DNA from: Ignavibacteriales bacterium
GTDB lineage: Bacteria; Bacteroidota; Ignavibacteria; Ignavibacteriales; Melioribacteraceae
DNA: 64,000 nt
Assembly: GCA_026390775.1 (NCBI GenBank)
Contig: JAPLFF010000008.1
Location: forward strand, 66,361-130,360
Direction of reading: 5' to 3'
In this document: positions 3,115 through 20,326 of the stretch, one piece after another
How the letters are laid out: each line of letters starts with the position of its first letter
Numbering within the stretch: the stretch's first letter is position 1
The notes under the pieces: generated by a model
The model's input: only the letters and a program-made list of their open reading frames with translations
Told to the model about the DNA's origin: nothing
Databases searched by the model: none
Program-made: the position numbers and the translations under genes

Positions 3115-3120
3115 TTTTAA

Positions 3121-3190: not shown

Positions 3191-3193
3191 ACG

Positions 3194-4204
3194 TCACATT
3201 GTTAGTCCCATGATTGCTTTTGCTGTATGCAAACGATTTTCTGCTTCATCAAAAACGATTGAAATTTTCGGATCATCGAGAATCTCATCAGTTACTTCAT
3301 TATTTCTATCTGCCGGAAGTGCGTGCATCAATTTTACATTTTTATCTGCAAGTTTAATTCTCTTGTCGTTGCAGATCCAGTCTTTATGTTTCTCAAGATT
3401 ACTTTTCATTTCTTTTTTGCATTGATCTTCATGCGAGAGATAAAATTCTTCATCATAAAATCCAAAGCCGCCCCAATTTTTTGGAATTACAATCTGTGCG
3501 CCTTCAAATGCTTCATCCATATTATTTGTAAAGCGTAAACTTCCTCCGCCTTCTTTTGCATTCTTCTGAGCTTTCTCAACAATATTTTTACTAAGAGGAA
3601 ATTCTTTTGGATGAGCGACCGTTACATCAATTCCGTAACGCGGGAAAAGAAGAATTTGTGTTTGCGGAACGCTCAGCGGTTTTGAGTGCGTTGTTGCGTA
3701 TGCCCAACTAACTGTTACTTTCAAATTTTTTGTGTTTCTACCAAGATGCTCGAAGATCGTCATCAAATCTGCAAGTCCTTGGAATGGATGATAAACATCA
3801 TCTTGCAACGACATGACAGGTTTTCTTGAGTTAGCCGCAAGTTCATTTAAATACTTATTGCCGATTCCGTAGAAACAATTACGGCATGCGATCCCGTGTC
3901 CCATGCGGCTAAGAATTATTGCTGTGTCTTTTGCAACTTCGCCGTGAGTGATCTGCATTTTATCTGGAGTGAGATCATGCGCGTGTCCGCCAAGCTGTGT
4001 CATCCCGGCTTCCATAGAGTTACGCGTGCGTGTTGATTGCTCAAAGAACATCATGAACAATGTTTTATATGGCAGCCAGAGTGTGGGTTCTTCCGCATAG
4101 AATTTCTTTTTCAAATCAAACGCCGTGTCAAAAACTATATCGAGTTCTTCTTTTGCCCAGTTGTCTTCAGTTATAAAATGTCTTCCTCTGAAACGAGTTT
4201 CCAT
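3194..4204 (-). CDS. ygeW: YgeW-type carbamoyltransferase
   Basis: A transcarbamylase-superfamily protein of 336 residues, slightly shorter than E. coli YgeW. The carbamoyl-phosphate motif FEQSTRTRNS is intact, followed by HPFQG (the HPxQ motif) and the C-terminal HALPAD loop, which replaces the HCLP of ornithine transcarbamylase. The opening RFRGRHFITEDNW and the insertion around MTQLGGHAHDL are typical of YgeW rather than ornithine or aspartate transcarbamylases. In E. coli the gene sits with ygeX, ygeY and ssnA. The likely role is phosphorolysis or transfer of a carbamoyl group from a ureido intermediate of purine degradation (inference). ygeY lies 25 bp upstream in the same orientation. 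Confidence 0.88.
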   Translation of the reverse strand: METRFRGRHFITEDNWAKEELDIVFDTAFDLKKKFYAEEPTLWLPYKTLFMMFFEQSTRTRNSMEAGMTQLGGHAHDLTPDKMQITHGEVAKDTAIILSRMGHGIACRNCFYGIGNKYLNELAANSRKPVMSLQDDVYHPFQGLADLMTIFEHLGRNTKNLKVTVSWAYATTHSKPLSVPQTQILLFPRYGIDVTVAHPKEFPLSKNIVEKAQKNAKEGGGSLRFTNNMDEAFEGAQIVIPKNWGGFGFYDEEFYLSHEDQCKKEMKSNLEKHKDWICNDKRIKLADKNVKLMHALPADRNNEVTDEILDDPKISIVFDEAENRLHTAKAIMGLTM

Positions 4205-4229
4205 TATTCCTCCAATAAGAAATATTCAG

Positions 4230-5429
4230 TTACTTAATTCTCTCTATTAACTCAAACGGAAAGAGCGAATAAAACTTTGTTGCCTTCAGCAAATCATTCA
4301 ATACAAGTTCTTCTTTCGATGAGTGAGAAAGTTCTTCTTTACCCGGCGCAAAACCGATTGTCGGAATTCCAAAATGTCCGGCAGTTGCAACTCCGTTAGT
4401 AGAGAAACTCCATACACCGCTCTTCGCTTTTCCGATTGCTTCCTTAGAAGTTTTCATTGCAGCATCAACTAACGGATGTTTCTCATCATAAACCCACGTA
4501 GGGAAATATGCCTCTTGTGAAAACTTCGTTCCTTTCCAGCTTGTTCCTTCAACATTTGGAATGGAAATTTTTGCATCGCTCTTATGCTTTTTGATAATCG
4601 CTTTTAATTCTTTCACAACAGAATTTTTATTTTCTCCGATCGTCATTCTTCTATCAAGATGAATCTGGCAATAATCCGAGACCGAACAAGTTGACGGTGC
4701 TTTGGAAATAACTTGGCTAACAGTTATTGAACCCTTACCAAGTGGTTGTTTGGGTTTTAATTTTTTATCAAGTTTTTCTATTTCAGAAATTATCGGCTGC
4801 ATTTTATAGATCGCATTAATTCCTTTTTGATTATGTGCGCCGTGTGCAGATTTTCCCGTTGCAGTAATTTTCAATTCCATTCTTCCGCGTTGTCCGAGGT
4901 AAACTTTTAGATCGGTCGGTTCGCCAAGTAAAACATAATCCGGTTTGATTCCTTCATTGGCGATTATATGATAAAGCGGATAACCGTCTGCATCTTCTTC
5001 AAGCACTGAACCGACAACATAAAGAGTGAATGGAAAATCATTTCCGTAAACCGCTTTCAAAACTTTTCCCGCGATCATAAATCCAGCCATAGCGGGCTTC
5101 TCATCAACAACTCCGCGTCCGTACATTTTTCCGTTTACGATTTCTCCGGCAAATGGCGGATGCGCCCAAGTTTCAGTATCGGTAACTTTCACTGTGTCAA
5201 CGTGTGCGTCAAACATAATTTTTATTGGTCCGTTGCCGATTCTTCCCACCGCATTTCCAAACCCGTCATGAAACGCATCGTCAAATCCGTATTCTTTCAT
5301 CTTAGAAACAATGAACTCAACAATTTCTTTTTCTTCACCGCTGTAGCTTTTAATTTGAATTAATTTTTGAATAAGAGAAAATAAATTTTCTTTCTCAGCT
5401 TCAACTGCACTAAATAATTTTTCTTTCAT
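4230..5429 (-). CDS. ygeY: YgeY-type M20 family metallohydrolase
   Basis: A 399-residue M20 peptidase/deacylase-family protein close to the 403-residue YgeY. Metal-site motifs are FDAHVDTV, MYGRGVVDEK, EEDADG and GEPTD, and the C-terminal histidine is in ELSHSSKEE. M20 enzymes hydrolyse amide, ureido or peptide bonds using a di-zinc centre. With YgeW next to it, a ureido or carbamoyl amino acid substrate is plausible (inference). It begins the leftward ygeY-ygeW-PLP-mocA operon, with a 108-bp divergent region separating it from the ygfK-like gene. Confidence 0.88.
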   Translation of the reverse strand: MKEKLFSAVEAEKENLFSLIQKLIQIKSYSGEEKEIVEFIVSKMKEYGFDDAFHDGFGNAVGRIGNGPIKIMFDAHVDTVKVTDTETWAHPPFAGEIVNGKMYGRGVVDEKPAMAGFMIAGKVLKAVYGNDFPFTLYVVGSVLEEDADGYPLYHIIANEGIKPDYVLLGEPTDLKVYLGQRGRMELKITATGKSAHGAHNQKGINAIYKMQPIISEIEKLDKKLKPKQPLGKGSITVSQVISKAPSTCSVSDYCQIHLDRRMTIGENKNSVVKELKAIIKKHKSDAKISIPNVEGTSWKGTKFSQEAYFPTWVYDEKHPLVDAAMKTSKEAIGKAKSGVWSFSTNGVATAGHFGIPTIGFAPGKEELSHSSKEELVLNDLLKATKFYSLFPFELIERIK

Positions 5430-5485
5430 GCTTATTCCAATTCAGTTTTATGACTAACAAAATTACAAAATTGTCTAAACACTTA

Positions 5486-5498
5486 ATACCGGTATACC
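5486..5498. promoter_or_regulatory. Overlapping palindromes in the ygeY/ygfK divergent promoter region
   Basis: The 108-bp divergent gap contains the perfect 10-bp palindrome ATACCGGTAT overlapping the 8-bp palindrome GGTATACC. An AT-rich TTATATTTATAATG follows just before ygfK and could hold a -10 element. A regulator binding here could control both arms of the island. No regulator gene is seen nearby, so this is tentative. Confidence 0.25.
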
Positions 5499-5537
5499 TT
5501 ATATTTATAATGTTCAAGAAAAAAAACTGGAAATTTC

Positions 5538-8500
5538 ATGTCAGATAAAATGCAGCCGATTCCTTTCCAAAATTTATTGGACTGGATATTTCAAGAGTAC
5601 GTTAACCAGAAATCCATCTTCGGGATTCCATCTTCAAAATTTTATTATGTTAAAGAAAAGGGGAATGACAAGATATTTGATGAATGTCTTGAAACTCCGA
5701 TCGGTCCTGCTGCCGGTCCGCATACTCAACTAACTCAAAATATAATCTGCGCATACTTAACCGGAGGCAGATTTTTTGAACTCAAGACAGTTCAAAAGCT
5801 GGACGACTTAAAGATTGATAAGCCGTGCATTGATGCAACAGATGAAGGTTATAATGTTGAGTGGTCGCAAGAACTGAAGCTTGATGAATCGTATGATGAA
5901 TATGTTAAAGCCTGGTTTCTAATTCATTTGATAAAAGTTCTGTTCGGGCTCTCGAAATCCAAAAGAGGATTTGTTTTCAATATGAGTGTTGGTTATGACC
6001 TTGATGGAATCAAAACTCAACGAATGGATAGATTCATTGAAGAACTAAAGGATGCATCTAAGAATGAATTATTCACTAAGTACAAATCAGTTTTAATAGA
6101 TCAGCTAAACAGTACTGATGTATTCAAATTGCTTGAGACCAGATTTGGAATTACTAGTAACAAACGTGATGAAATCATTCTGAACATAGAAAACATTTCA
6201 CCACATATATCTAATTCGGTTACACTTTCAACAATGCACGGCTGCCCTCCTCATGAAATTGAAGCTATTGCAAAATATCTTATCCAGGAAAAAGGATTAC
6301 ACACTTACGTAAAATTAAATCCGACTCTTTTAGGATATGATTTTGTAAATGATACTCTGCATAAACTCGGATATAAATATATCCATCTTGACAAGAATTC
6401 TTTCGATCACGACATTCAATATCAAGATGCTATTCCTATGATTAATAGATTAAGATCGTTTGCTTCTGCATACAATAAAACTTTCGGGATTAAACTTTCC
6501 AACACGCTTGGAGTGAAAAATACAATTAAAGCATTACCTGGCGATGATATGTATATGTCAGGCAGATCGCTTTACCCGCTTACAATAAATCTTGCATACA
6601 AATTAGCTAACGAATTCAATGGTGAAATAAATATTTCTTATTCTGGCGGAGCCAATATCAATAACATAAAAGAAATATTAGAAACCGGAATAAGACCGGT
6701 TACTTTTGCTACAGAATTATTGAAACCCGGCGGATATTTACGTCTTTCACAAATTGCAGAAACGGTCGAAAAGAATTCATCAAAGTTCGAACATAGTTTT
6801 AAAAAAAATACTGCTCACCTGAAAATTTTAGCAGAAGCATCTCTATCAGATAAAAACTATTCTAAAGAGAAACGTGAAATTAATTCTATAAAGATTCCTA
6901 AAACTCTTCCGGTTTTTGATTGTTACATCGCTCCATGTCAAGAAGCATGTCCGATACATCAAGATGTTGCATCGTATATTAAATTAGTTGAACAAAAACG
7001 ATACGAAGAAGCATACGAGTTGATCATTTCAAAAAATCCGTTACCTCACATAACAGGTTACATTTGCGACCATCAATGCATGTTCCATTGCACACGTTGG
7101 GATTATGATGAGCCGGTGTTGATTCGTGATCTTAAGAAGGAAGCAGCTCTTAATGGTTTTGATTTATACATAAAAAAATTCAAGAATGATCTTTCATTTA
7201 ATCAGAATAAAATAAAAGTTGCAGTTATTGGAGCGGGACCATCTGGCTTATCTGCCGCATATTTTTTAGCCAAAGCCGGATTTAATGTAACAATTTTCGA
7301 AAAAGAAATGAATGCCGGCGGTATAGTTCAAAATGTATTACCAAGATTCCGTTTGCCAAAAGAAGCAATAGAAAAAGATATTGAGTTTATCGAAAAACAT
7401 GGAATCAGATTTGTTTTTGGTTTTAATCCAAATTTCTCAGTTGATAAACTGAAAAAAGAAGGATATAAATATATCTACATAGCAATCGGAGCTGAGACAT
7501 CAAACAAAATTAAGATTGATGGTGATAATGGAAATATTTTTGATGCGATTGAATTCTTGAAAGATTATCACAATGATCAATTTATAAAGCCCGGCAAAAG
7601 TGTTGCTGTTATTGGCGGCGGTAATTCGGCAATGGATAGCGCACGTGCTGCAACTCGTTATAAAGGAGTTAAAAAAGTTTACCTGATCTACCGTAGAACA
7701 AAAGAACAAATGCCGGCAGATAAAGAAGAATTTTTTGCTGCACTTAAAGATGGAGTTGAGTTTAGAGAACTGCTGCTTCCTATCAGATTTAACAACGGAC
7801 TTCTAGTTTGTCAGAAAATGAAACTGAGCGAGACTGGATCTGATGGAAGAAAAAATGTATTGCCGATTGATGGCGAGTATGAAGAAATTAAAATTGATTC
7901 CGTAATCTCTGCAATCGGTGAAAACGTTGATACGGAATTTTTGACAAAAAATAAAATTCTATTAGAAAATAACAGAGTGAAAGTTACCGAGTCTAATGAG
8001 ACGATGATAGAAAATGTTTTCATTGGCGGTGATGCGCTGAGAGGACCATCTACCGTAGTAGAATCAATTGCAGATGGAAAGAAAGCGGCAGAAGCAATCA
8101 TTAAGAAAGAAAATGTTAAGGTCGGGCAGTACTCTGCTAAAAATTATTTTGTCAATGATCAACAACTTTTTGAAGACATAAGAAAAAGAAAGGGTGAAAT
8201 TGCAAATCAATCTAATACAAATTTTATTATTGAAGCCGGAAGGTGTTTAGGATGCAATTTTATCTGCAATAAATGCGTTGAGGTCTGCCCGAACCGTGCC
8301 AATGTTGCAATAATATCGAATTCAGATTCCTTTAAAGATCAATATCAGATTATCCATCTTGATCAACTATGCAACGAGTGCGGCAACTGCGAAACTTTTT
8401 GCCCTTACCAAGGTGCACCATATAAAGAGAAGTTCACATTTTTTAAGAGTAAAAATGATTATACTCAAAGCACTAACGAAGGTTTTTACTTTGATGAGAA

Positions 8501-8657
8501 TAAAAATCTAACGACAGTAAATATAAGATTGAGATCTGAGACTGGAACGATTCTTTTTGATAATCACGGAGAAGTTGTTCAAACAACAATCAGTACTCGA
8601 AACGAACTAATTCAATTAATTAAAATATTTCGGAAGGATTATTCTTTTCTAATTTGA
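5538..8657 (+). CDS. ygfK: YgfK-type Fe-S flavoprotein (putative selenate reductase subunit family)
   Basis: A 1039-residue multidomain oxidoreductase matching E. coli YgfK in length and order. Residues about 1-440 form a dihydroorotate-dehydrogenase-like barrel ([23 protein letters not shown]). At about 461 comes a GltD-like 4Fe-4S entry module ([10 protein letters not shown]). At about 560 is the FAD site [15 protein letters not shown], and at about 688 the NAD(P)H site [14 protein letters not shown]. From about 902 there are two 4Fe-4S ferredoxin clusters ([16 protein letters not shown] and [12 protein letters not shown]). The architecture resembles dihydropyrimidine dehydrogenase, suggesting reductive handling of a purine-derived ring, but the reaction here is inferred. 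It is convergent with the Mo-hydroxylase operon, with a 6-bp gap between stop codons. Confidence 0.9.
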
Positions 8658-8663
8658 GAATAA

Positions 8664-9134
8664 TTAGTGAGCCGTTAATTCTTTTGCGCTTTCACTGATT
8701 GCTTCAATTATTTGTTTGTACCCGGTACATCTGCACAAGTTACCCGCAATTGCATCTTTGATTTCTTCTTCGGTAGGATTTTGATTTTCTTCAAGCAAAG
8801 CATAAGCCGATAAAACCATTGCCGGTGAACAGAATCCGCATTGTACTGCACCATACTTTAAGAAATTTTTTTGAATCGGATGTAATTCATTACCGTTTGC
8901 AATTCCTTCAATTGTAACGATCTCACTTCCTTCAATTTGTGCAGCAAGAATCAGACATGAATTAACCGCTTTTCTATTCAATAATACAGTACATGCACCG
9001 CACTCTCCAACTCCGCATCCTTCCTTTGTTCCGGTTAGATTTAATTTATCTCTGAGTAGATCGAGCAAACGGATACTCGGTTCAGTCTCTACTGTAACTT
9101 GTTTTCCGTTAAGTATGAATTTCAAACTGATCAT
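8664..9134 (-). CDS. Molybdenum hydroxylase [2Fe-2S] subunit (three-subunit type)
   Basis: At 156 residues this is the standard small subunit of a three-gene Mo hydroxylase, like E. coli YgeU or XdhC. The plant-ferredoxin-like cluster is CGVGECGACTVLL plus a downstream cysteine in NSCLI. The second all-alpha cluster is CGFCSPAM with CRCTGY. It passes electrons from the Mo site to the FAD subunit. Its start overlaps the end of the FAD subunit gene by 4 bp, and it is the last gene of the leftward operon. Confidence 0.93.
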   Translation of the reverse strand: MISLKFILNGKQVTVETEPSIRLLDLLRDKLNLTGTKEGCGVGECGACTVLLNRKAVNSCLILAAQIEGSEIVTIEGIANGNELHPIQKNFLKYGAVQCGFCSPAMVLSAYALLEENQNPTEEEIKDAIAGNLCRCTGYKQIIEAISESAKELTAH

Positions 9135-10003
9135 TTTATTCTTTTCGTCATTCGATTAAGCATTTGATAAAACATTTGCTGGACAACCGGTAATTTATAT
9201 TCACTTGACCAACGTAATCCTGTTAATTTAATTATCTCTTCTGCTAGCTTGCTTGCAAGCAATTTTAAAAAATCGTTCTTTACTTCTTTACCGGCAGCAA
9301 ATTTTTCTAATTCCTGGAAACGAGTTCCTATTGGAGTTGCAGCGCCGGAAGCAATTCTTATTTCATTTATTTTGTTCTCGTTCAACTCCATCAAAACAGC
9401 AAGTGTAATTCTGCTGATAGCTACAGCCTGGCGTCTTCCTAGTTTATAAAAATCTCCTACAAAAGTTTTTGGCGGAACCGGAATATTTATGCGGATTACA
9501 ATTTCATCTTTCTTTAATTGTGTTTTGTAAGGACCTTGCAAAAATTCTTGTAGTGATATTTCCCGTTTAGAATGGATTGATTCAATTTCTATTGTAGCGT
9601 TGTAGATCAATAGAGCTGGAACAGTATCGGCACACGGTGCGTTGTTTACAAAATTTCCCGCTATCGTAGCGCGGTTTCTTATTTGCAAACTGCCGATTGT
9701 AGCAACAGCTTTTTTTAGAATCTGTAACTCTTTGGAAACTATTTGGTTTGTATAAATCTCCGTAAATGTTGAAGCCGCACCGATAGATATTTTCCCATTC
9801 CTTTGTTCAATTCCTTTAACTTCTGCAACATGATTAATATCAACTAAAACTTCCGTATTAACAAAACGATTCGATTCTTGTTTCAGTCCGGTAACTACAT
9901 CCGTTCCGCCTGCAATAATTCTTAAATCTTTGTCATAATTTGAAAGAATGCTGAGTACCTCGTTCAAATTTTTTGGAATCAATATTTCGATTGATGGCAT
10001 CAC
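9131..10003 (-). CDS. Molybdenum hydroxylase FAD-binding subunit (YgfM/XdhB-like)
   Basis: A 290-residue PCMH-type FAD protein. The FAD pyrophosphate-binding loop is RIIAGGTDV near residue 30, and the second motif GSLQIRNRATIAGNF near 110 is typical of xanthine-dehydrogenase and CO-dehydrogenase medium subunits. It receives electrons from the 2Fe-2S subunit and passes them to an external acceptor. Four-base overlaps with both neighbours imply a coupled operon. E. coli YgfM (259 residues) is the likely counterpart given XdhD-like and SsnA-like neighbours, but XdhB is equally possible. Confidence 0.9.
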   Translation of the reverse strand: MMPSIEILIPKNLNEVLSILSNYDKDLRIIAGGTDVVTGLKQESNRFVNTEVLVDINHVAEVKGIEQRNGKISIGAASTFTEIYTNQIVSKELQILKKAVATIGSLQIRNRATIAGNFVNNAPCADTVPALLIYNATIEIESIHSKREISLQEFLQGPYKTQLKKDEIVIRINIPVPPKTFVGDFYKLGRRQAVAISRITLAVLMELNENKINEIRIASGAATPIGTRFQELEKFAAGKEVKNDFLKLLASKLAEEIIKLTGLRWSSEYKLPVVQQMFYQMLNRMTKRIK

Positions 10004-12381
10004 TGCAAACTTCCTCTTTTCACTTCAACCGGCCTTAGCTTTTTACCTAATAAAATTTCCTCTAAGTTCAGTGGTAAATTAAAAAATCTTTTTCCGAGAG
10101 CATTACTAACTGCATTTGAAATTGCAGCCGCTGTTAATTCCAAAGTTGGTTCACCTAAAGACTTAGCTCCCCATGGTCCGTAAATCTCTTTTCCTTCAAC
10201 AAAGATTGGTTTTATTTTTCCAATATCTTTTGCCGTTAGAATTAAATACTGATCAAAATTTAATTCACGGATTAATCCATTATCTATTGTTACTTCCTCT
10301 AGCATTCCATAACCCGCGCCTTGTGTAACACCGCCGTAAACTTGTCCTTCTGCACTAAGTTTATTTATTACTGTTCCTGGATCGTGCACCGCTGTGATCT
10401 TATCAAGATAGACTTCGCCCGTTCCGAGGTTAACATTCACTTCTGCAACCTGACATCCGTACACATAAGTAAAGTAAGCGTCTCCTTGTCCTGTATGTTC
10501 ATCCCAATCAACGTTTGGACTTTTATACCAACCGATTGTCGAAAGATTTACTCCACACGACGATGCAAGTCTGCAAAGATCAGGAAAAGTTGCGAGTTGA
10601 GAATTGAGAATTGAGAATACTTTATTATCACTAAAAACAATTTCATCTTCTGTTTTTAATTTCCATTCTTCACGAATTAATTCTTCAAGTCGCCCGCGTA
10701 AAATTTCTGCTGCATTTTTAACGGCGCCTCCGCCCATCAATGTTGCACGCGATGCAACCGTTGGTCCGCTATCCGGTACACGTGATGTATCTGTCTCAAG
10801 ATAAAATATATTGTCAGTCGTAATTCCTAATTCTTCTGCAACAATTATAGAAAATGTTGTTCTTAATCCTTGCCCGTTCTCCGCAAGTCCGGAAAGTAAA
10901 TATGCGGTTCCATCATTTTGAATTGAGAGATAGCAAGCTGCAGCATCAATGCCTTCTGCACCAAGTGAACAACCTCGGTAGCTTACCGCAAGACCAATTC
11001 CTTTTTTAATAAGTTGATCTGGTTCAATGAATTGCGAATTATTGAAAACAGGTTTTGTGAAATCATATTTTTTTAATATCGGTTTTTCTTTTTTGTATTT
11101 CTTCCATTTGTTTTGAAAATCAGTTTCCTTAGTTGCGGTATCCAAAACTGTTAAAAGATTTACATCATGGTTTTGAAGTTTTTGTCCAGTTGCAGTTATT
11201 GACCCGGCTTTCAATCCATTTATTTTTCTTACTTCGTTTGGAGTAATTCCCAGCTTAAGTGCAATCTCATCCATCAACGATTCATTAGCAAAGATCGGTT
11301 GAGGCGAACCGAAACCCCGCATTGCACCGGTGTATGGATTATTCGTGTAAACAGCGCGCACATCAGTATGAACATGTTCGATTTCATAAGGTCCGGTTGC
11401 TTGAACAACAGAACGCCAAGTTACAAACGGACTCATTGAGCAGTAAGCTCCGCCGTCTGCAAGAATATCTATCTTCATAACTTTTATCTTACCGGAGTTT
11501 GTAAATCCAACTTTATAATTTAAAATGTATGGATGACGTTTATACGATTCGAGGATTGATTCTTCTCTTGTGTAACGAATTTTCACCGGACGATTTGTTT
11601 TTATAGCTGCAACGGCGGCGCGTGAAGAAAGAATGCACATTGTATCATCCTTTCCGCCGAACGACCCTCCGAGTTGCGCTTGAATTACTTGCACTTTGTC
11701 TAACGGAAGATTTACAACAGCCGCAATAATTCTTCTCGCACTAAAAGGATTTTGAATACTGCCAATAATTTTTACCCCATTCACACCAAGCGGTATAGCA
11801 ATAACAGCTTCAGGTTCTATGTAAGCATGTTCAATTAATTGTGTTGTATAAGTTTGTTCAAGTATGTGATCGCTCTCAGCAAATCCTTTTTCGATATTTC
11901 CTTTGCGTAGAGGATGATGAACTATAAGATTACTTCCTAATTCCGGATGAATTAAAATTGCATCCGGATCAAGTGATTTTCTTGGATCTGTTAAAGCCGG
12001 AAGTGGTGTGAAATCAACTTTTATTTTTGATAAAAGCGAACGAAGTTGAGCTTCATCTTCGCCGACTAGCATTGCAAGAACATCTCCCGGTGTTACAACT
12101 ACTTCATCGCAGAAAATCGGTTGATCGTTTTTAATCATACCAACTTTCTTCTCACCCGAAATATCTGCAGATGTAATTATTGAGTTAACTGAGTTATCGT
12201 TTTCAATTTCTGAATAATCAATCGAATTAATCTTGGCGTGAGTCTCAGGAATCCTAAGCATTACCGCATGAAGCATTCCATCAAATTTATAATCATCGGC
12301 AAACTTAGCACGACCGGTTATTTTATCGAATCCATCTTCACGAACTATTGGTTTGCCTACAACAGAAAAATTTTTTTTCAT
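10000..12381 (-). CDS. Molybdenum hydroxylase Mo-cofactor-binding large subunit (XdhD-like)
   Basis: A 793-residue catalytic subunit. The N-terminal hammerhead domain starts VGKPIVREDGFDKITGRAKFADDY. The Mo-site motifs include GGSFGGKDD, the arginine-bearing AMRGFGSPQ, the AENGQGLRTTF segment and the C-terminal active-site glutamate in GAKSLGE. These are expected for purine or aldehyde hydroxylation with water as the oxygen source. It is the first gene of the large-FAD-2Fe2S trio, whose order differs from the second Mo hydroxylase further upstream. Three copies of a 7-bp repeat are in frame at 10597-10617. The exact substrate (xanthine, hypoxanthine, nicotinate or other) cannot be fixed from the sequence. 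Confidence 0.92.
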   Translation of the reverse strand: MKKNFSVVGKPIVREDGFDKITGRAKFADDYKFDGMLHAVMLRIPETHAKINSIDYSEIENDNSVNSIITSADISGEKKVGMIKNDQPIFCDEVVVTPGDVLAMLVGEDEAQLRSLLSKIKVDFTPLPALTDPRKSLDPDAILIHPELGSNLIVHHPLRKGNIEKGFAESDHILEQTYTTQLIEHAYIEPEAVIAIPLGVNGVKIIGSIQNPFSARRIIAAVVNLPLDKVQVIQAQLGGSFGGKDDTMCILSSRAAVAAIKTNRPVKIRYTREESILESYKRHPYILNYKVGFTNSGKIKVMKIDILADGGAYCSMSPFVTWRSVVQATGPYEIEHVHTDVRAVYTNNPYTGAMRGFGSPQPIFANESLMDEIALKLGITPNEVRKINGLKAGSITATGQKLQNHDVNLLTVLDTATKETDFQNKWKKYKKEKPILKKYDFTKPVFNNSQFIEPDQLIKKGIGLAVSYRGCSLGAEGIDAAACYLSIQNDGTAYLLSGLAENGQGLRTTFSIIVAEELGITTDNIFYLETDTSRVPDSGPTVASRATLMGGGAVKNAAEILRGRLEELIREEWKLKTEDEIVFSDNKVFSILNSQLATFPDLCRLASSCGVNLSTIGWYKSPNVDWDEHTGQGDAYFTYVYGCQVAEVNVNLGTGEVYLDKITAVHDPGTVINKLSAEGQVYGGVTQGAGYGMLEEVTIDNGLIRELNFDQYLILTAKDIGKIKPIFVEGKEIYGPWGAKSLGEPTLELTAAAISNAVSNALGKRFFNLPLNLEEILLGKKLRPVEVKRGSLQ
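10597..10617 (-). repeat. 7-bp tandem repeat (TTGAGAA) inside the XdhD-like gene
   Basis: Three perfect contiguous copies of TTGAGAA (plus-strand reading) encode the segment around VFSILNSQLATF in a surface-type region of the large Mo subunit. Since 7 is not divisible by 3, a one-unit change would truncate the protein. Confidence 0.8.
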
Positions 12382-12393
12382 TTATTCTATCCA

Positions 12394-12501
12394 GTCATTC
12401 TGAGTACAGACAAAGTCTGTGCGAAGAATCTCTTACTTATAATTTTGAGATCCTTCAGTCGTTACACCTGCCTACCGGCAGGCAGGCTTCTTCAGAATGA
12501 C
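12394..12501. repeat. Dispersed palindromic repeat, copy 2 (with nested GC-rich insert)
   Basis: This fills the 124-bp gap between ssnA and the XdhD-like gene. The ends GTCATTCTGAG and CAGAATGAC are complementary. Inside are GAAGAATCTC, AAGTAA-like and GAGATCCTTC boxes matching the element at 3121-3190 in reverse orientation. A nested palindrome (GCCTACCGGCAGGC core) interrupts one arm. Confidence 0.7.
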
Positions 12502-12505
12502 ATTA

Positions 12506-13837
12506 TCATTTTATTTGATGATACAACCTTTCGCCTTGAATGTAAATCTCATTTTTAATTTTGTTCTCATCAACACCAATTAGCTGAAAATCCTTCATCA
12601 AAAAATTTCCATTCTGTAATACAGTATGAATCGGAAATTCCAACATACCAAAAATAAAATGTCCCCAGAAATTTTCTTTAGTCATTGGTGTTGGTGGAAC
12701 ATAATCCCAAACGATTAGATCAGCACGTTCGTTTTCATTGAGAGTTGAGAAATCCGGGAAATATTTTTTAGCAAACCCAATTTGATCGAAATAAATTCTT
12801 TTTATAAGTGCTGTCGCTTGATCTCCGTTGATGCCTTGATCTCTAAAAGTTAAGAACATTTGTTTAAGTGAACGGGAAATGTTTGAGTGCATACCGTCTG
12901 TTCCGGCTAATAGCGGAATACTTTTGGGAATCTTGCTGAAATTCGGAACACCGACAGAATTATTCATGTTGGAGTCGAGACAAAACGCAATTGCGCTTTC
13001 TGCTTCACTGATCTTGTCATAATCTCTTTCCTTTAGATGAACGCCATGTACCAAAATACTTTTATCATTCATCAGCTTGAATTTTTTCAAGCGGCTGACA
13101 GGTAATGAGCCGGTGTATTCAACGCTTAATCTATTATCACTTTCATCTTCTGCGACATGAATATGAATTCCCCAATCAGATTTCATAAGCATTTTTGACT
13201 CTAGCAGAAGATCATCCGAAAGTGTAAACGATGCATGTAATCCCAGCATGGCATGGAAATCATCGTTCATTTGAAACGAGTAAAACTCTTTGTTCTCTGA
13301 TAATCCTCTTAATGCATTGTTGAGACCGTTTCTATCTGTACTTTCGAAACAAAGTACACCACGTAATTTAAAATCATTTAATACATTTTTTATTGTTTTC
13401 AAACTTCCTGCAATTTCGTTTTGTGATGAGTGATGATCAAAAATATATGTTACACCGCTGCGGATTGATTCAATCGCAGCCATTTGTGCTGAAGCAATTA
13501 TCATTTCCATGTCAAGCACGCGGTCAAGTTTCCACCAAAGATTTTTTAGAACGTTCTGAAAATTATCAAACTTGCCTTTAAGCGGTAAACCTTTAGCAAG
13601 TCGGGAATAAATGTGATCATGGAAGTTTACTAATGGAATTGTTACTACTCTTCCATATGCATTGAAAGAATCCTTATTAACCTTATCGGGATTTTTCATA
13701 TAAATATGAAAATATTTAGGACGAATTTTAGAGATCTTTCCACCGCTTATTATTATGTCGCCAAAGAATGGAATTATCTCGTTTTCTACAATTGTACAAA
13801 TCCAAGCATTTTCGATTGTTAGATTTTTTGTTTTCAT
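12506..13837 (-). CDS. ssnA: SsnA-type amidohydrolase (putative aminohydrolase)
   Basis: A 443-residue metal-dependent amidohydrolase very close in length to E. coli SsnA (442). The metal-binding start NFHDHIYSRL stands in for the usual HxH near residue 71. Later come HIHVAED (third metal histidine), LVHGVHL, and LAGTDGMHSN with the catalytic aspartate. Such enzymes deaminate purine-like bases (guanine deaminase relatives). Placed between two Mo hydroxylases, deamination or ring opening of a purine intermediate is likely (inference). It follows the PLP gene by 18 bp and is transcribed leftward. Confidence 0.88.
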   Translation of the reverse strand: MKTKNLTIENAWICTIVENEIIPFFGDIIISGGKISKIRPKYFHIYMKNPDKVNKDSFNAYGRVVTIPLVNFHDHIYSRLAKGLPLKGKFDNFQNVLKNLWWKLDRVLDMEMIIASAQMAAIESIRSGVTYIFDHHSSQNEIAGSLKTIKNVLNDFKLRGVLCFESTDRNGLNNALRGLSENKEFYSFQMNDDFHAMLGLHASFTLSDDLLLESKMLMKSDWGIHIHVAEDESDNRLSVEYTGSLPVSRLKKFKLMNDKSILVHGVHLKERDYDKISEAESAIAFCLDSNMNNSVGVPNFSKIPKSIPLLAGTDGMHSNISRSLKQMFLTFRDQGINGDQATALIKRIYFDQIGFAKKYFPDFSTLNENERADLIVWDYVPPTPMTKENFWGHFIFGMLEFPIHTVLQNGNFLMKDFQLIGVDENKIKNEIYIQGERLYHQIK

Positions 13838-13855
13838 TTTTTATCCAATAAGATT

Positions 13856-15322
13856 CTATTCTGTTAATCCAACTTGTTTGTTAAAATCATCAATTAGTTT
13901 ATCCCACACAGGAACAATGGCAAATTTTTCCTCCCAATAATTTTCATCATACCATTGAGCGTTTAGTTCTTCAACTGATTTACCCTGCTGTTCTACCCAT
14001 GTAAAATATTTTAGATTGTGAATCCGTTTCTTATCGTAATAGTTCAATTCACTGAAATAGTCAATCGTTTGTTTCTTGATCACTGAAGTCCAATCAACTT
14101 CACTTTGATGCTCGGAATATTTTCCCCATTCTTGATTCATTTCTTCCAAACGTGAGTTGTACATTTCTTTTGAATCGGTGAAGATCGTAAAAATGACATC
14201 GTTCTCGTTCATCTCGTAATACTTTGCAAGCTTAATTGAACTAAGCATATTGCTGACCGAAGAAATTCCAAGCCAGGAAAGTTTTTCAATAACATCATCC
14301 TTCACACCATTAGCTATCAACCATCTTTTCCCTTCCGGTTCATTGAACAATCTTAAAATTCTTAACGGATCTTCATCATCAATTGCGCATACAGCGTCTG
14401 TGTTTTTAACATTGTGAATCCATGGTATATGTTTATCGCCAATCCCTTCAATCCTATGCGCACCGTAGCCATTCATCAAAAGTGTTGGGCACTGCAATGC
14501 TTCAGCGGCTAATACTTTTAGTAATGGAAATTTTTCACGCAGATAATCGCCTGCACCAATCGTCCCTGCAGATCCAGTTGCACTTACATATCCGCTTACT
14601 CTTTGATTTTCTTTTTTAATTTGATTAAAAAGTTTTTCGATTGTTGAACCGGTAACAGTGTAATGCCAGATTGTATTTCCAAATTGATCGAACTGGTTGA
14701 AGATTACATATTCATCACTCTTACTTTCTAACTCATGACATTTATCATAAATTTCTTTTACATTACTTTCGCAGCCTGGGGTTGCATAAATTTCGGCGCC
14801 CATATTTTTAAGCCAGCTAAATCTTTCTTTACTCATCTCTTCGGGAAGAATTGCAACACCGTGAACTGATAACAAACGCGAATTAAAAACTCCGCCACGG
14901 CAGTAATTTCCCGTTGAGGGCCAAACAGCTTTATGATATTCAGGATTAAATCTTCCTGTTATCAAATAAGGAACAAGACAACCGTACGAAGCACCGACTT
15001 TGTGTGCGCCGGTGGGGAAGAATTTACCGACCAGACCAATGATACGTGCTTTAATTCCTGTGATCGCTTGCGGTATTTCTAAAAAATTTATTCCGCCGAT
15101 TTTTCCTGTTGTAGAATCGTTCTGCCAATTGATACGAAATAAATTTAACGGATCTGTATCCTGCATTCCGACTTTAGGAAGCTTATCTTGAATTTTTTGA
15201 GGAATGGTTTCCGGATTTTTCATTTCGCTGAATTTCGGAAGAATTATTTTTTGTTTCTTACATCGTTCAATCGTCTTTTTTAGAAATTCTTTATTTTCAA
15301 TTTGCCATGACCAATTGTTCAT
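13856..15322 (-). CDS. TrpB-fold PLP-dependent enzyme of the yge-type cluster
   Basis: A 488-residue fold-type II PLP enzyme. The lysine is in FPTGAHKVGAS (K108), resembling the TGAHK of tryptophan synthase beta, and PSTGNYCRGG is the PLP-phosphate and substrate loop. The C-terminus is extended compared with the roughly 400-residue YgeX diaminopropionate ammonia-lyase, whose sequence it does not resemble closely. Similar proteins are commonly annotated only as PLP-dependent subunit beta. Between ssnA and a xanthine-dehydrogenase-like pair, with a 4-bp overlap to the latter, it may perform the deaminating step of the pathway (inference). Confidence is high for the fold and low for the substrate. 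Confidence 0.8.
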   Translation of the reverse strand: MNNWSWQIENKEFLKKTIERCKKQKIILPKFSEMKNPETIPQKIQDKLPKVGMQDTDPLNLFRINWQNDSTTGKIGGINFLEIPQAITGIKARIIGLVGKFFPTGAHKVGASYGCLVPYLITGRFNPEYHKAVWPSTGNYCRGGVFNSRLLSVHGVAILPEEMSKERFSWLKNMGAEIYATPGCESNVKEIYDKCHELESKSDEYVIFNQFDQFGNTIWHYTVTGSTIEKLFNQIKKENQRVSGYVSATGSAGTIGAGDYLREKFPLLKVLAAEALQCPTLLMNGYGAHRIEGIGDKHIPWIHNVKNTDAVCAIDDEDPLRILRLFNEPEGKRWLIANGVKDDVIEKLSWLGISSVSNMLSSIKLAKYYEMNENDVIFTIFTDSKEMYNSRLEEMNQEWGKYSEHQSEVDWTSVIKKQTIDYFSELNYYDKKRIHNLKYFTWVEQQGKSVEELNAQWYDENYWEEKFAIVPVWDKLIDDFNKQVGLTE

Positions 15323-17595
15323 CCTTTCTCCTGATGTTTTGGTGTATTGTATAATGTAAGCAAAACTTTTTCCGGTGTAAGCGGCGCTGAGAAATTCATT
15401 TCAAGATTTGGTTTGAATGCTCTCATTGCATTCATCAATGCAAAATAAACGCCAATACCATACATTAATGGCGGTTCACCGATTGCCTTGGAATTATTCG
15501 GTCCGAATGGATTAGATACATTTTCCAGAAAATGAATTTTCATTTCTTTCGGAACAGCATGTATATCAGGTATTTTATATGTTGATAGCGCATCCGTCAA
15601 TAGTTTTCCTTCACTGTTCCATTTCAATTCTTCCATAGTCATCCAACCGATTCCTTGTACGATTCCTCCTTCGGCCTGACCCAAATCTATTGTCTTGTTA
15701 ATCGTATCACCGAAATCATGAACCACTTTAACCGAATCAACTTCATAAATACCTCTTAAACAATCCAACGTTACTTCAACAATTGCAACACCGTATGAAT
15801 GATAAGCGAACGGTTCACCTTTATTTATTTTAGTGTCGAAATAAATATTTGGCGTTGAATGATGTGCTTGAGCAGTTAAACTAATTCGTTTTCTGTATGC
15901 TATGCTTACAAGTTTTATAAAATTCAGTTCGGTTTTATTGTTCTTATAAAAAATAATTTCATCTTTAAGAAGTATACGGGAAGATCTTTTCACTTTTAGT
16001 TCATCGGTGGCGACTTTCTTTAGACGACTTATTAAAATCTTGCAAGCATCTATAACTGCAAAACCATTTAGATCTGTACCTTTGCTTGCTGCGGTAGCAG
16101 AACTGTTTGAAACACGTGAAGTGTTTGTTGAATCAATGTGAATTCTATCAATGTTGATCGAGAGTTCATTTGCGGCAATCATTCTTAGTTTTTCATTAAC
16201 TCCTTGTCCCATTTCGATAGCGGCAGTATTAATGCCTACGCTTCCATCCGTGTAGATGTGAAGCAGTGCAGAAGCCTGATTCAAAAATGTTGTAGTGAAA
16301 GAAATTCCGAAAGTGACAGGTATAATTGCCGCACCTTTTTTCATCAATTTATTTTTTGAATTGAATTCAATAATTCTTTCAAAAACTTCTTTTGGTTTAT
16401 ATTTATCTTCTACTCCAGCAAAACATTTTCCAATATTGCAATTCAATGTTTTCTGTCCGTACGGAAATTCATTTCCTTCTATTAATAGATTTTTCTTCTG
16501 AATCTCTGAAGGATCTATTCCAAGTTCATTCGCTGCTTTGTATATAGCAGATTCAATCACAAACATTCCCTGTGGTCCGCCGAATCCTCTGAATGCAGTA
16601 AACGGAGTAAGATTGGTTTTACAGCTTAATGCAGTAGCTTTTACATTTGGAATGAAATAGGAATTTGTACAGTGAAAAAGTGTACGGTCTAAAATTGCAG
16701 GTGAAAGATCTGCTGCTGCGCCTGCGTTCTGATAAAAAGTTACTTCGTAAGCAAGAATTTTTCCTTTTTTATCCAGCCCGATTTTAAAATCAGAAGAGTA
16801 AGGATGTCGTTTTCCTGTAATTCTAATATCTTCTTGCCGAGGTAAAATTATTTTAACCGGTTTATTTAATTTCAAAGCGGCTAAAGCTGCCATAACAGCC
16901 CACGCAGTTGCTTGATCTTCTTTACCGCCAAATCCTCCGCCTAGTCTTGTAACATCTACTTCAATTTTGTGCATAGGTAATCCAAGGACACGTGAAGCCG
17001 TACGCTGAACTGATGTTGGTCCCTGTGTTGATGAAATTATTTTTATTCCTCCGCCTTCCATGGGAAATGCGAGTGAACCTTGTGTTTCAAGATAAAGATG
17101 CTCTTGCCCCCCACTCTCAACAACTCCTTCGAAAATGTAATCACATTTTTTCCAAGCCTTATTAATATTGCCAAGTTCAAAAATTCTTGGTGGAATTATC
17201 AGTTCACCTTTTGCTGCAGCTTCGCGAGGATCAAACACTGCAGGAAGTTTTTCGAATTCACATTTAATCTTTTTTGCAGCATCATGTGCTTGAAGAAAAG
17301 TTTCTGCAATTACCAAAGCTATTGGATGACCAATAAAGTGAGCCGTGTCCTCCGCAAATAGATCCTCATCTTGAACAATGCCTCCAATCTGATTTTCACC
17401 CGGGATATCTTTTGCAGAAATAATTCCTTTTACACCTTGTACATGTAATGCTTCTTCGAAACCAAGGCTTAATATTTTCCCATGTGCTATAGGAGAATAA
17501 AAAACATAGCCGTACAAAGTCCCTTGCGGAGACACAATATCATCAACAAAAAGAGATTCACCCCGGACGTGTTTTATTGAGTCTACGTTTCTCAA
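15319..17595 (-). CDS. xdhB: Xanthine dehydrogenase-type molybdopterin-binding subunit (XdhB-like)
   Basis: A 758-residue Mo subunit of the two-component bacterial xanthine dehydrogenase type. It opens with the hammerhead domain HVRGESLFVDDIVSP. Mo-cofactor motifs include RLGGGFGGKEDQ, FRGFGGPQGM and AIEMGQGVNEK, and the active-site glutamate lies in SKAIGEPP. The size and the fused Fe-S/FAD partner upstream match proteobacterial XdhB with XdhA. It overlaps both neighbours by 4 bp. The enzyme would oxidise hypoxanthine or xanthine to urate, or run in reverse under strongly reducing conditions. The directionality is not visible. Confidence 0.9.
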   Translation of the reverse strand: MRNVDSIKHVRGESLFVDDIVSPQGTLYGYVFYSPIAHGKILSLGFEEALHVQGVKGIISAKDIPGENQIGGIVQDEDLFAEDTAHFIGHPIALVIAETFLQAHDAAKKIKCEFEKLPAVFDPREAAAKGELIIPPRIFELGNINKAWKKCDYIFEGVVESGGQEHLYLETQGSLAFPMEGGGIKIISSTQGPTSVQRTASRVLGLPMHKIEVDVTRLGGGFGGKEDQATAWAVMAALAALKLNKPVKIILPRQEDIRITGKRHPYSSDFKIGLDKKGKILAYEVTFYQNAGAAADLSPAILDRTLFHCTNSYFIPNVKATALSCKTNLTPFTAFRGFGGPQGMFVIESAIYKAANELGIDPSEIQKKNLLIEGNEFPYGQKTLNCNIGKCFAGVEDKYKPKEVFERIIEFNSKNKLMKKGAAIIPVTFGISFTTTFLNQASALLHIYTDGSVGINTAAIEMGQGVNEKLRMIAANELSINIDRIHIDSTNTSRVSNSSATAASKGTDLNGFAVIDACKILISRLKKVATDELKVKRSSRILLKDEIIFYKNNKTELNFIKLVSIAYRKRISLTAQAHHSTPNIYFDTKINKGEPFAYHSYGVAIVEVTLDCLRGIYEVDSVKVVHDFGDTINKTIDLGQAEGGIVQGIGWMTMEELKWNSEGKLLTDALSTYKIPDIHAVPKEMKIHFLENVSNPFGPNNSKAIGEPPLMYGIGVYFALMNAMRAFKPNLEMNFSAPLTPEKVLLTLYNTPKHQEKG

Positions 17596-19001
17596 AGCAA
17601 TTTCTCCGAATCCACGAGTTGCGGAAATAATTTAATAAAATGTGCGCAAAATAATTGATGCAGCAATAATCTTTTATACTCAGCAGAACCACGTGCATCA
17701 CTGATTGGCAAAATTTCGCTTGCAGAAATTGCTGCAGCCTTTTTTATTGTTTCAGTATCAATCGATTTGTTTCTTAAATAGTTACAAGTATTGTTAAGAT
17801 ATAACGGAATTGGGGCTACTCCTCCTACTGAAATATGAATCGTTGTTATTTTTCCGAGTTTTAATTCTATATAGATTGATGAATTTACGCTTGCAATATC
17901 AAGATAAGTTCGTTTAGAAATTTTTTCGAAATTAAAGAATGAATTCTTTGAAGGAATCTGAAAAGATAATTTTTCAACAATTTCATTTTTTTTCTTTTCT
18001 AATGATTTATAACCTTTGTAAAAATTTTTAAGAAGAATTGATCTTTTCTTCTTTCCATCATTCAAGTGAACAGTTGAGTTGAGTGCAAGAAAAATATTGA
18101 CCATATCACCTATTGGAGATGCATTAACAATATTTCCGCCGATTGTTGCTCGATTACGAATCGAGAGAGAGCCGAAGAGACTTAAATAGCTGTTCCATTG
18201 AGGAAAATATTTTTGAAATAGTTTTGATGATTTTAACTCTTCGATAGTTGTTGCCGAACCAATATTAATTTGTTTCCCTGTTTGAGAAATTCCGGTAAGC
18301 TTTTTATACTGTGATATTAAACTACCTTTACTGCGGACTAAACTTTCCCACCTCTGAACATAAAGATCTGTTCCGCCTGAAATAACAATATTTGAATTTT
18401 TATCAATTGATTTATTATCTACAGAAATTTTCTCAAGGCGTTTTTTTATATCCTGGAAATAATTAGGAATAAATTTTAATGCAATCAAGTTTTCAATATG
18501 ATTTCTGTCATCTGATCTTCCATTTTCAAATATAGAAATTGAATCGGAGGCCGCACGCTTAATCCCAGCGTAACCGGTACATCGGCAAATATTTCCACCA
18601 AGTGATTCTATTGCATCATCGGGATTAAGATTAGAGTTGTTCAAAAAATATCCGGTCATAGAAACAACAAAGCCCGGAGTACAAAACCCGCATTGTGTTC
18701 CGCCGTCATCAACCATCGCCGCTTGAACTGGTGAAAGATCTTTCTGATTAATTCCTTCAACAGTTACAACATGTTTACCATTGGCATCCCCTAACGGCAT
18801 CAAGCATGAATTAACAGATTTGTGTTTGACAGTTCCTTTAACTAATTCACCAAGAAGAATTGTACACGCGCCGCAATCACCTTCCCGGCATCCTTCTTTC
18901 GTTCCCGTTAACATTTTTTCTTTTCTTATAAAATCGAGAAGAACTGTTGTGGGGGGAAGATCAGTAGTAATATTAAGATCATTAAGAATAAATTTGATCA
19001 T
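17592..19001 (-). CDS. xdhA: Xanthine dehydrogenase-type Fe-S/FAD subunit (XdhA-like)
   Basis: A 469-residue fused electron-transfer subunit. The N-terminal [2Fe-2S] motif is CREGDCGACTILL, the second cluster is CGFCTPGF with CRCTGY, and an FAD domain follows with GGTDLYVQRW and GSLSIRNRATIGGNIVN. This fusion is the hallmark of bacterial XdhA, in contrast to the separate subunits at 8664-10003. It is the first gene of the long leftward operon xdhA-xdhB-PLP-ssnA-Mo hydroxylase 2. The divergent MFS gene begins about 140 bp away. Confidence 0.92.
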   Translation of the reverse strand: MIKFILNDLNITTDLPPTTVLLDFIRKEKMLTGTKEGCREGDCGACTILLGELVKGTVKHKSVNSCLMPLGDANGKHVVTVEGINQKDLSPVQAAMVDDGGTQCGFCTPGFVVSMTGYFLNNSNLNPDDAIESLGGNICRCTGYAGIKRAASDSISIFENGRSDDRNHIENLIALKFIPNYFQDIKKRLEKISVDNKSIDKNSNIVISGGTDLYVQRWESLVRSKGSLISQYKKLTGISQTGKQINIGSATTIEELKSSKLFQKYFPQWNSYLSLFGSLSIRNRATIGGNIVNASPIGDMVNIFLALNSTVHLNDGKKKRSILLKNFYKGYKSLEKKKNEIVEKLSFQIPSKNSFFNFEKISKRTYLDIASVNSSIYIELKLGKITTIHISVGGVAPIPLYLNNTCNYLRNKSIDTETIKKAAAISASEILPISDARGSAEYKRLLLHQLFCAHFIKLFPQLVDSEKLL

Positions 19002-19138
19002 TTTAACCTCAGTGGAATAATATCCACTTATGGTACAGCAATAACAGAAATAAATATCTTACTCATCAAAAAATTAACATTTTGGAATGCCGAAATCAAA
19101 AACTTAATTTCATATGCAAATAATCCAATTTGAGATAA

Positions 19139-20326
19139 ATCATCGAAACCTGGAAGAAAAATTTAACAGCTCTGTGCATAAGTCAATTTTTTTACCGTGC
19201 AGGAACACGAAGCTTGATTCCTTTTCTTCCTCTTTTTATTCATGATATTGGCAAGACCACACCCGAATATACTGCAATATGGAGCGGGTGGATATTTGCA
19301 GCTCCATTTATTGTTTCATTTTTCACAACTCCTTTTTGGGGAAGCTTCGGCGATAAATACGGCAGAAAATTAATGACAATTCTTGCTGTGTTTGGTTTTG
19401 CTGCCGCTCAGTTTTTGATGGGATTCTCTACAAACTTGACTCAACTTATTTTATTTGCTTCGCTTCAAGAAGTTATGGGCGGATTTTATCCCGCAGCTGT
19501 TTCGTTAACAGCGTCCAACACTCCAAAAGAAAAAACAGCGCAAGCTCTCGGTATACTGCAATTTGCAAACGGCTCAGGAAATGTTGTGGGACCAATTTTA
19601 GGAGGCGTACTTGCAGATCTGGTTGGTCTTAGAGAAGTATTCTTTTTAATTGCAATAACAGTCGGGCTATCCGGATTTTTGATTGTTTTCTTTATAGATG
19701 AAAAAAAATTCACACGTGAAGACCATAATTATTACTTCCTCACAAAAAATTGGCGGTATGTCTTAGAGAATAAAAAATTAATTATATGTATGTTGTTTCT
19801 ACTGATATATTCTTTAGCCGTCACGGTTGTTCGTCCTACATTCTCGCTGTTCATCAAATCAATGAATTTTACATTGAACAATTCTTCCACAGTAACGGGG
19901 ATTTTGCTAGGTATTTTCGGCGGCACCTCTGCATTGGCTTCTGCTTTAGTTGGCAAATTAGCAGTTAAAAGAAAAATTTATTCGATACTTTTATTTGCCT
20001 CAATAGTTGTAACTTCAACATACTTCTTGCTTTCATTTGTGAGCTCTGCTTCTTTTTTAATAATAGTATTGGCTGTTGGTGGATTTGGATTAGGATTAAT
20101 TCAACCATTGGTATTTACTTTAGTAAGTCATAATACAGATAATAACCGAAAAGCAGGTGTGTTTGGCGTAGGATCAAGTTTTCAGGTAATTGGAAATCTT
20201 TTCGGTTCTGTATCAGCCGGATATATTGTTTCTGAATTTGGATTGCGTTTTCCATTTGTTGCAGCCGGGGTACTGTTTTTATTGGTAATTTTTATTGCTT
20301 TATTTGGATTAAAGAAAAACTTGTAA
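19139..20326 (+). CDS. MFS transporter (start codon unclear)
   Basis: A 12-helix major facilitator. The loop-2/3 motif GSFGDKYGRKLM and the drug-exporter-type motif GNVVGPILGG are clear. The best in-frame ordinary start is TTG at 19214, which removes half of helix 1. The same frame remains open to a stop at 19136, and the intervening residues (TWKKNLTALCISQFFYRAG) look like a genuine MFS first helix. No ATG, GTG or TTG lies in that extension, so I give the open-frame boundary. The start could be a rare ATC or CTG, or the gene could have lost its start. It is divergent from xdhA. It could be an exporter or a purine-pathway importer; the motifs favour the DHA exporter group. Confidence 0.7.
   Translation: MIETWKKNLTALCISQFFYRAGTRSLIPFLPLFIHDIGKTTPEYTAIWSGWIFAAPFIVSFFTTPFWGSFGDKYGRKLMTILAVFGFAAAQFLMGFSTNLTQLILFASLQEVMGGFYPAAVSLTASNTPKEKTAQALGILQFANGSGNVVGPILGGVLADLVGLREVFFLIAITVGLSGFLIVFFIDEKKFTREDHNYYFLTKNWRYVLENKKLIICMLFLLIYSLAVTVVRPTFSLFIKSMNFTLNNSSTVTGILLGIFGGTSALASALVGKLAVKRKIYSILLFASIVVTSTYFLLSFVSSASFLIIVLAVGGFGLGLIQPLVFTLVSHNTDNNRKAGVFGVGSSFQVIGNLFGSVSAGYIVSEFGLRFPFVAAGVLFLLVIFIALFGLKKNL

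Follow-up and report, generated by a model that had tools for sequence, protein, structure and literature searches.

The 64,000-nt window (the whole stretch of DNA analysed, from an Ignavibacteriales bacterium) carries at about 1250-20326 a cluster of the reductive uric-acid type with two PLP enzymes. The reading favoured here, to which about an even chance is given, is a reductive uric-acid pathway without YgeX. A ThrC-like enzyme (1849-3114, minus strand) would occupy the YgeX slot and a CysK-like enzyme (13856-15322, minus strand) would be a separate partner; we infer the substrates and reactions of both. The YgeX step is most likely filled by the ThrC-like enzyme, its reaction being likewise deduced, while the reaction of the CysK-like enzyme is weakly constrained by the evidence.

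The island starts with a MobA/MocA-like nucleotidyltransferase gene (1250-1852, minus strand), which overlaps the ThrC-like gene (421 aa from ATG) by 4 nt. A short YgeW-like carbamoyltransferase (3194-4204, minus strand; 336 aa) and a YgeY-type M20 hydrolase (4230-5429, minus strand) follow, and YgfK is encoded on the plus strand (5538-8657). Two distinct xanthine-dehydrogenase-type (Xdh-type) complexes lie within the single island. The first (8664-12381, minus strand) comprises an Fe-S subunit (8664-9134), a FAD subunit (9131-10003) and a Mo subunit (10000-12381), the second (15319-19001, minus strand) a Mo subunit (15319-17595) and an Fe-S/FAD subunit (17592-19001). Between them are located the genes of an SsnA-like aminohydrolase (12506-13837, minus strand) and of the CysK-like enzyme. 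An MFS transporter gene (19214-20326, plus strand) forms the island border. Tested against the NCBIfam cut-offs, YgfK (1393.9 bits, cut-off 835.3) and YgeY (455.5 bits, cut-off 321) scored above, SsnA (317.6 bits to TIGR03314, cut-off 455.5) and YgeW (194 bits, cut-off 453) below. The YgeW-like protein obtained a higher score for OTC (219.6 bits) than for YgeW. At its start, the CysK-like gene shares 4 nt with the upstream Xdh large-subunit gene, and 18 nt separate its end from the SsnA gene, so that it looks like a part of one operon. HyuA is not encoded in the island; a D-hydantoinase/dihydropyrimidinase is located elsewhere in the genome (C3:837414; 608.8 bits, cut-off 393). Another hydantoinase-like match in this genome (G000:C5:32575-33702, L090) contains one in-frame TGA, representing a pseudogene, an error or selenocysteine. 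Three related loci (L067, L072, L080) harbor two YgeW-like carbamoyltransferase genes each, perhaps one for each ureido group.

The preliminary description had noticed no YgeX in the island, and the same was found for the entire genome (3.01 Mb, 8 contigs, 99.94% complete). The YgeX family model TIGR01747 gave no match over its cut-off (best 30.8 bits, cut-off 274), and TIGR03528 (YgeX) none at 1e-30. A YgeX concealed elsewhere in the genome, raised in that description as an objection to a variant pathway, was rejected on these searches. The ThrC-like protein itself reached 20.3 bits with TIGR01747. A PF00291 search detected six PALP genes in the genome, encoding the CysK-like and the ThrC-like protein, one CBS-like, two CysK/CBS-like and one BhcB/threonine-dehydratase-like protein. 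TrpB was not seen among these six, so tryptophan synthesis may be absent. One CysK-group gene of the genome (1462-2574 in L003, G000:C3) carries HRIQGISDEFIP, an Fn1055-like Asp loop.

The ThrC-like protein possesses the ribbon that had been described earlier as a zinc ribbon: C8, C11, C28 and C31 (two CxxC motifs) precede the PALP domain. All four cysteines are kept in 35/35 relatives and, almost without exception, in six ordinary ThrC-type genes too, hence the ribbon is not special to this protein. The protein stays below all six threonine-synthase cut-offs shown, e.g. with 226 bits against 303 (PRK08197) and 155.3 against 167.1 (TIGR00260). Three congeners (G048, G091, G136) harbor the ThrC-like gene together with a separate true ThrC gene, which exceeds the cut-offs of both models (607-618 bits for the former, 183-193 bits for TIGR00260). 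The ThrC-like protein is distinct from true ThrC. In fold comparisons, threonine synthases were the best matches (Z 40.2, rmsd 2.4, 373 aligned), followed at lower scores by CapA2 (Z 37.7) and the Salmonella diaminopropionate ammonia-lyase (Z 31.3).

Residues of note in the ThrC-like protein are K128, T152, N220, G222, T227 and D256. By alignment count, N154, S155, R160 and N188 of the Thermus threonine synthase face N220, A/G222, T227 and D256, respectively. Among the relatives, A or G is found at position 222 in 34/35, T, L or M at position 227 in 35/35 and D at position 256 in 34/35 (35 rows, 34 distinct; alignment A2 covers the window and, from the 17 loci that contain a ThrC-like gene, 15, two partial loci being dropped). 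Arg160, corresponding to position 227, as well as Ser155 and Asn188 presumably hold the phosphate in threonine synthase. Arg occupies the Arg160 position in 5/5 solved threonine synthases among the matches listed and in the true ThrC of the congeners. Of the six weaker ThrC-type genes, four show Arg at 227, one shows Ser at 222 and none shows Asn at 256. Since the Ser155 and Asn188 positions are also lost in the true-ThrC-type rows of the three congeners and of G118, only Arg160 discriminates. A homoserine kinase (TIGR00191) was not found over the cut-off in the genome (46.7 bits, cut-off 168.25); G048 and G091 reached 227 and 235 bits, while G136 stayed below (46). As G136 has a true ThrC without such a kinase over the cut-off, the kinase test alone is not decisive. 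Compared with threonine synthase, the ThrC-like protein shares the fold, the Lys motif and the N-terminal ribbon found in the congeners' true ThrC, but differs in its scores below the cut-offs, in T, L or M at the Arg160 position and in a GDG loop. Plasmid-borne relatives amount to 47 records, of which the 15 listed are haloarchaeal and named threonine synthase where annotated.

The profile comparison of YgeX with the ThrC-like protein aligned most of the length (probability 99.7, E 1.9e-25). The relationship of the CysK-like protein to YgeX is much more remote (probability 81, E 1.2e-5). Lys77, Asp120 and Asp189 are taken here as active-site residues of YgeX, Asp120 being the base that acts on the D isomer. 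In the profile alignment, D120 falls on T152 and D189 on N220 of the ThrC-like protein, and K128 represents its Lys. Both proteins have the DTAW/NT(A,G)Y region in common, whereas Thr in place of Asp120 and the N-terminal Cys ribbon distinguish the ThrC-like protein from YgeX.

The open reading frame 13856-15322 encodes 488 aa with the TGAHK motif and Lys at position 108, as described before; K108 is assigned as the Schiff-base residue. The label TrpB, which had been attached to it, was rejected. Its eight NCBIfam matches at E<=0.001 are all CysK, CysM, CBS, cysteate synthase or SbnA families, with no TrpB family model among them, and the listed fold matches belong to the CysK/CBS group as well. 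The best score (cysKM, 101 bits) is below the cut-off of 344.15. Profile searches led to solved cysteine synthases. The predicted model (mean pLDDT 87.9; below 50 in a loop near 293-299) matches 3vc3_A best (Z 35.3, rmsd 2.5, 312 aligned). Judged from sequence and model, the CysK-like protein is assigned to the cysteine-synthase/CBS group.

The CysK-like family is highly conserved and has no curated name. Its group positions are retained, namely the Lys, the STGN-type loop (136-139), the Gln (Q210) and the GISS-type Ser (S354). In a conservation set of 106 rows (104 distinct), K108 is kept in 104/104 rows with letters and G293-I294-G295-D296-K297-H298 is invariant in 105/105; alignment A1 covers the window and 42 of the best 80 loci. 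D296 in the GIGDK loop aligns with the Asp of Fn1055 at the GIS-D loop position. This Asp has the chain index 236 in the profile alignment, which we take to be D232 of PDB entry 5b55 (the offset is an assumption); the title of this entry names a D232N mutant with aminoacrylate. According to PMC9865163, Fn1055 forms L-serine and sulfide from cysteine and water. The CysK fold (Z 34.1 to 5z5c, rmsd 2.8, 312 aligned), the Asp in the same loop, the conserved Gln and the GISS-type Ser are common to the CysK-like protein and cysteine synthase or Fn1055. In contrast, N- and C-terminal extensions are present in the CysK-like protein, and K297-H298 and NYCRGG occur in its family only.

A GTDB genome scan with the CysK-like protein yielded at least 582 relatives. 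The best 80 of these at least 582 loci (57-94% identical; many on short contigs) originate from Ignavibacteria, Calditrichota, KSB1, Elusimicrobia, Omnitrophota, Atribacteria, Bacteroidales and others. They contain SsnA-like (49), HyuA-like (28), YgeY (25), YgfK (21), YgeW (20) and ThrC-like (17) genes. Of 102 loci with matches >=700 bits (the best 80 and later loci, with at least two contigs doubled, namely L057/L098 and L080/L107), 56 contain SsnA, 53 an Xdh-type gene, 26 the ThrC-like gene and 2 YgeX. Within 350 nt of the CysK-like gene, 24 HyuA-like, 24 SsnA, 15 Xdh-type, 12 ThrC-like and 9 YgeY genes were counted in these loci, the figures referring to neighbour genes and not to loci. The recurrence without YgeX in several phyla supports the variant pathway that the preliminary description had suspected.

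In 149 genomes of the same class, SsnA (39), CysK-like (37) and ThrC-like genes (39, >=400 bits) nearly coincide. At 1e-80, 42 ThrC-like matches are obtained, 39 of them at >=400 bits and 3 at about 273. All three genes occur together in 35 genomes and any of them in 40. CysK-like and ThrC-like genes are both present in 36 genomes, the former alone in 1, the latter alone in 3 and neither in 109; SsnA and ThrC-like genes are both present in 38, each alone in 1, and neither in 109. The Fisher values for the co-occurrence (7e-30 and 4e-33) ignore relatedness, by which the co-occurrence in this class is inflated; counted by genus, the CysK-like gene is present in 25/81. YgfK (E<=1e-150) was detected in 18 of the 149 genomes, and 18/18 also have the CysK-like gene. 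The 36 genomes with both PLP genes carry them on the same contig in 18 cases and within 30 kb in 17. The order by query matches in L128, L130, L137 and L138 is ThrC-like, CysK-like, YgeY, YgeW. Among 50 genomes behind loci, drawn from 50 of the 80, a ThrC-like match >=420 bits was found in 45 and YgeX at 1e-30 in 3; this set is not independent of the 149 genomes, because the two overlap in part (L057 ~ G132, L020 ~ G118). The remaining 5/50 CysK-like genomes have no strong ThrC-like match, and one of these five has an in-cluster YgeX.

YgeX did not exceed the cut-off in any of the 149 same-class genomes, and eight showed weaker matches (1e-30). A search of the related loci with the E. coli YgeX identified one real YgeX (41%, L077) and seven weak matches, all seven in loci with a ThrC-like gene. 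L077 and L125 contain YgeX (74% alike) together with YgfK, Xdh, SsnA and CysK-like genes, and no ThrC-like gene is present in either locus; in the genome of L077, the only ThrC-type match has 287 bits. The opposite pattern was found in three genomes of one genus (G004, G015, G035; fragmented, 85-94% complete), with a ThrC-like gene near SsnA, YgfK or Xdh2-type genes and neither a CysK-like nor a YgeX match. From 30 genomes of the L077 phylum with a match, 20 further loci were obtained, of which 1 has YgeX (L125), 8 have the ThrC-like gene and 11 have neither within the stretch; several are on short contigs. Both patterns suggest that the ThrC-like gene exchanges with YgeX and that the CysK-like gene is an extra. 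This apparent exchange is drawn from few cases, namely two YgeX loci of one phylum and three genomes of one genus. The two PLP enzymes had been supposed either to split one deamination between them or to act on different amino acids. The former is disfavoured, since L077/L125 and G004/G015/G035 separate the roles; as for the latter, the CysK-like enzyme seems additional and perhaps serves a different amino acid.

YgeX-like matches (1e-30) were commoner in genomes with the CysK-like gene (6/37 versus 2/112). Three of these genomes (G029, G077, G108) scored 437-509 bits, the cut-off being 532, and it is therefore likely that a genuine YgeX coexists at another place in some genomes. No other pathway match was found in the examined stretch around eight YgeX-like genes; these belong to seven other genomes, six of which have the CysK-like/ThrC-like pair. 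Of the eight genomes with a match at 1e-30, all but G053, G099 and G141 were covered. A YgeX of other genomes as a cluster member was rejected, as L100-L105, L111 and L112 have no other query match nearby. The absence of cluster genes carries less weight for L105 and L112, each located at the end of a contig.

Homologues of the CysK-like enzyme with the same signature loops (41-43% identical) are located on plasmids of Rhizobium sp. NXC24 (L145, 11965-13464) and Bosea vaviloviae (L146, 12070-13404), with Phaseolus vulgaris and Vavilovia formosa as their respective sources. The annotated regions around them contain no uricolytic genes. A TauE/SafE exporter gene is the next gene upstream in Rhizobium and about 7 kb off in Bosea. 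An M20 hydrolase gene is present in both regions and is not YgeY-like by score. In Bosea, a RidA-type gene is one transposase gene away. 2-Aminoacrylate is the substrate of RidA, which makes a beta-elimination plausible for the CysK-like family. The plasmid homologues may be catabolic enzymes for plant beta-substituted alanines. In Calditrichota, the CysK-like gene lies beside DUF364/DUF4213 and HAD genes; in L047, L049, L051 and L054 it is followed by a protein gene, the copy in L054 being DUF4213/DUF364. CpXC genes are neighbours in L068 and L074 and prephenate genes in L081. These non-uricolytic contexts were uninformative as clues to the reaction. A conserved gene pair (about 345 and 160 aa) occurs upstream of the CysK-like gene in L019 (6647-8181), L036, L037, L046, L048 and L073; the first of the two has no Pfam match.

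In the proposed mechanism, K128 of the ThrC-like enzyme would bind L-2,3-diaminopropionate, and elimination of the beta-amino group would lead via aminoacrylate to pyruvate and ammonia. D256 would hold the cationic beta-amine near the place where threonine synthase holds the phosphate. Albizziin or diaminopropionate would undergo a beta-elimination or a beta-replacement by the CysK-like enzyme, a near-constant partner, whose D296-K297-H298 is the putative leaving-group/nucleophile loop. These two compounds are the beta-substituted alanines that PMC12507026 names as intermediates of the pathway and are therefore the likely substrates of this enzyme.

A two-step relay is rather unlikely. The CysK-like enzyme would add water to the aminoacrylate derived from diaminopropionate, releasing L-serine and ammonia, and the ThrC-like enzyme would convert serine into pyruvate. 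The alignment of D296 with the Asp of the serine-forming Fn1055 and the linkage of the pair (within 30 kb in 17/36 genomes; 12 ThrC-like neighbour genes within 350 nt in 102 loci) are in line with it. A few clusters, however, have either enzyme without the other, and the RidA-type gene near the Bosea homologue fits a release of free aminoacrylate instead of serine. Little probability is assigned to the CysK-like enzyme as a racemase or an enzyme for the other enantiomer, enabling an L-only ThrC-like lyase to complete the pathway. In favour of this role, YgeX is equally active on the L and D forms (PMC12507026), the R configuration has been suggested for an earlier stage of the pathway (PMC12990295) and Thr replaces Asp120 in the ThrC-like protein. 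Yet the CysK-like gene accompanies YgeX in L077/L125 and is missing in the three genomes that carry the ThrC-like gene alone, and its STGN loop likewise has Thr at the Asp120 place. It is also quite improbable that the CysK-like enzyme assists the molybdenum hydroxylases as a source of sulfide or selenide for their Mo cofactor. The CysK-group fold, the overlap of its start codon with the Xdh large-subunit gene and the Xdh-type genes (in 53/102 loci, 15 as neighbours within 350 nt) would agree with such a role. Against it speak the more frequent HyuA-like and SsnA neighbours (24 each), with ThrC-like (12) and YgeY (9) next, and the Xdh-type genes near the ThrC-like gene in two of the three genomes without the CysK-like gene.

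That the ThrC-like gene encodes an ordinary biosynthetic threonine synthase is very improbable. No other ThrC is found among the six PALP genes of this genome, an outcome that the preliminary description would have counted as a refutation, and threonine synthases are the top fold matches (Z 40.2). Against this stand the missing thrB (none over the cut-off) and the congeners G048, G091 and G136 with both genes. Moreover, the protein falls under six cut-offs, while the second gene of the congeners passes two of the same models, and the Arg160 position is lost. Another heterocycle or purine derivative may be degraded by the island through related chemistry, the PLP enzymes acting on a different beta-substituted alanine; this is given a slight chance. 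SsnA and YgeW below their curated cut-offs, the lack of HyuA and the two Xdh-type complexes would be explained, but YgfK and YgeY exceed their cut-offs, 28 of the best 80 loci have HyuA-like genes and the genome encodes a D-hydantoinase (608.8 bits).

The reductive uric-acid pathway was elucidated in 2025, with the order of the ureido steps and the enantiomer listed as open (PMC12990295). The favoured YgeX-less pathway resembles that of E. coli and Clostridioides difficile (PMC12507026) in the joint presence of YgfK, YgeY and SsnA-, YgeW- and Xdh-type proteins, and in the HyuA-type gene of 28 of the best 80 related loci. It differs in the absence of YgeX, in the ThrC-like and CysK-like enzymes present instead, and in divergent YgeW and SsnA. 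Replacements of YgfK and YgeW are described in the accessible sections of PMC12507026, none of YgeX, and the survey reported there marks YgeX by PF00291. The CysK-like and ThrC-like proteins also match PF00291, so a survey by this model alone does not distinguish the YgeX-less variant. A literature search confined to papers outside subscription, hence leaving aside the C. sporogenes study, found no prior description of the variant.

Possibly, although with less than an even chance, several phyla use a repurposed threonine synthase at the last step of reductive purine breakdown together with a new, near-constant CysK-family step on a ureido- or amino-alanine that is absent in E. coli. With at least 582 loci, the CysK-like family represents a conserved pathway companion without an assigned reaction. 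The missing counterpart of the YgeX Asp120 suggests that both PLP enzymes are L-specific. If so, the route would proceed via L intermediates, contrary to the proposed R (D) configuration. Clusters in which enzymes lacking an Asp120 counterpart seem to take the place of the non-stereospecific YgeX offer a direct handle on the stereochemistry of the pathway.
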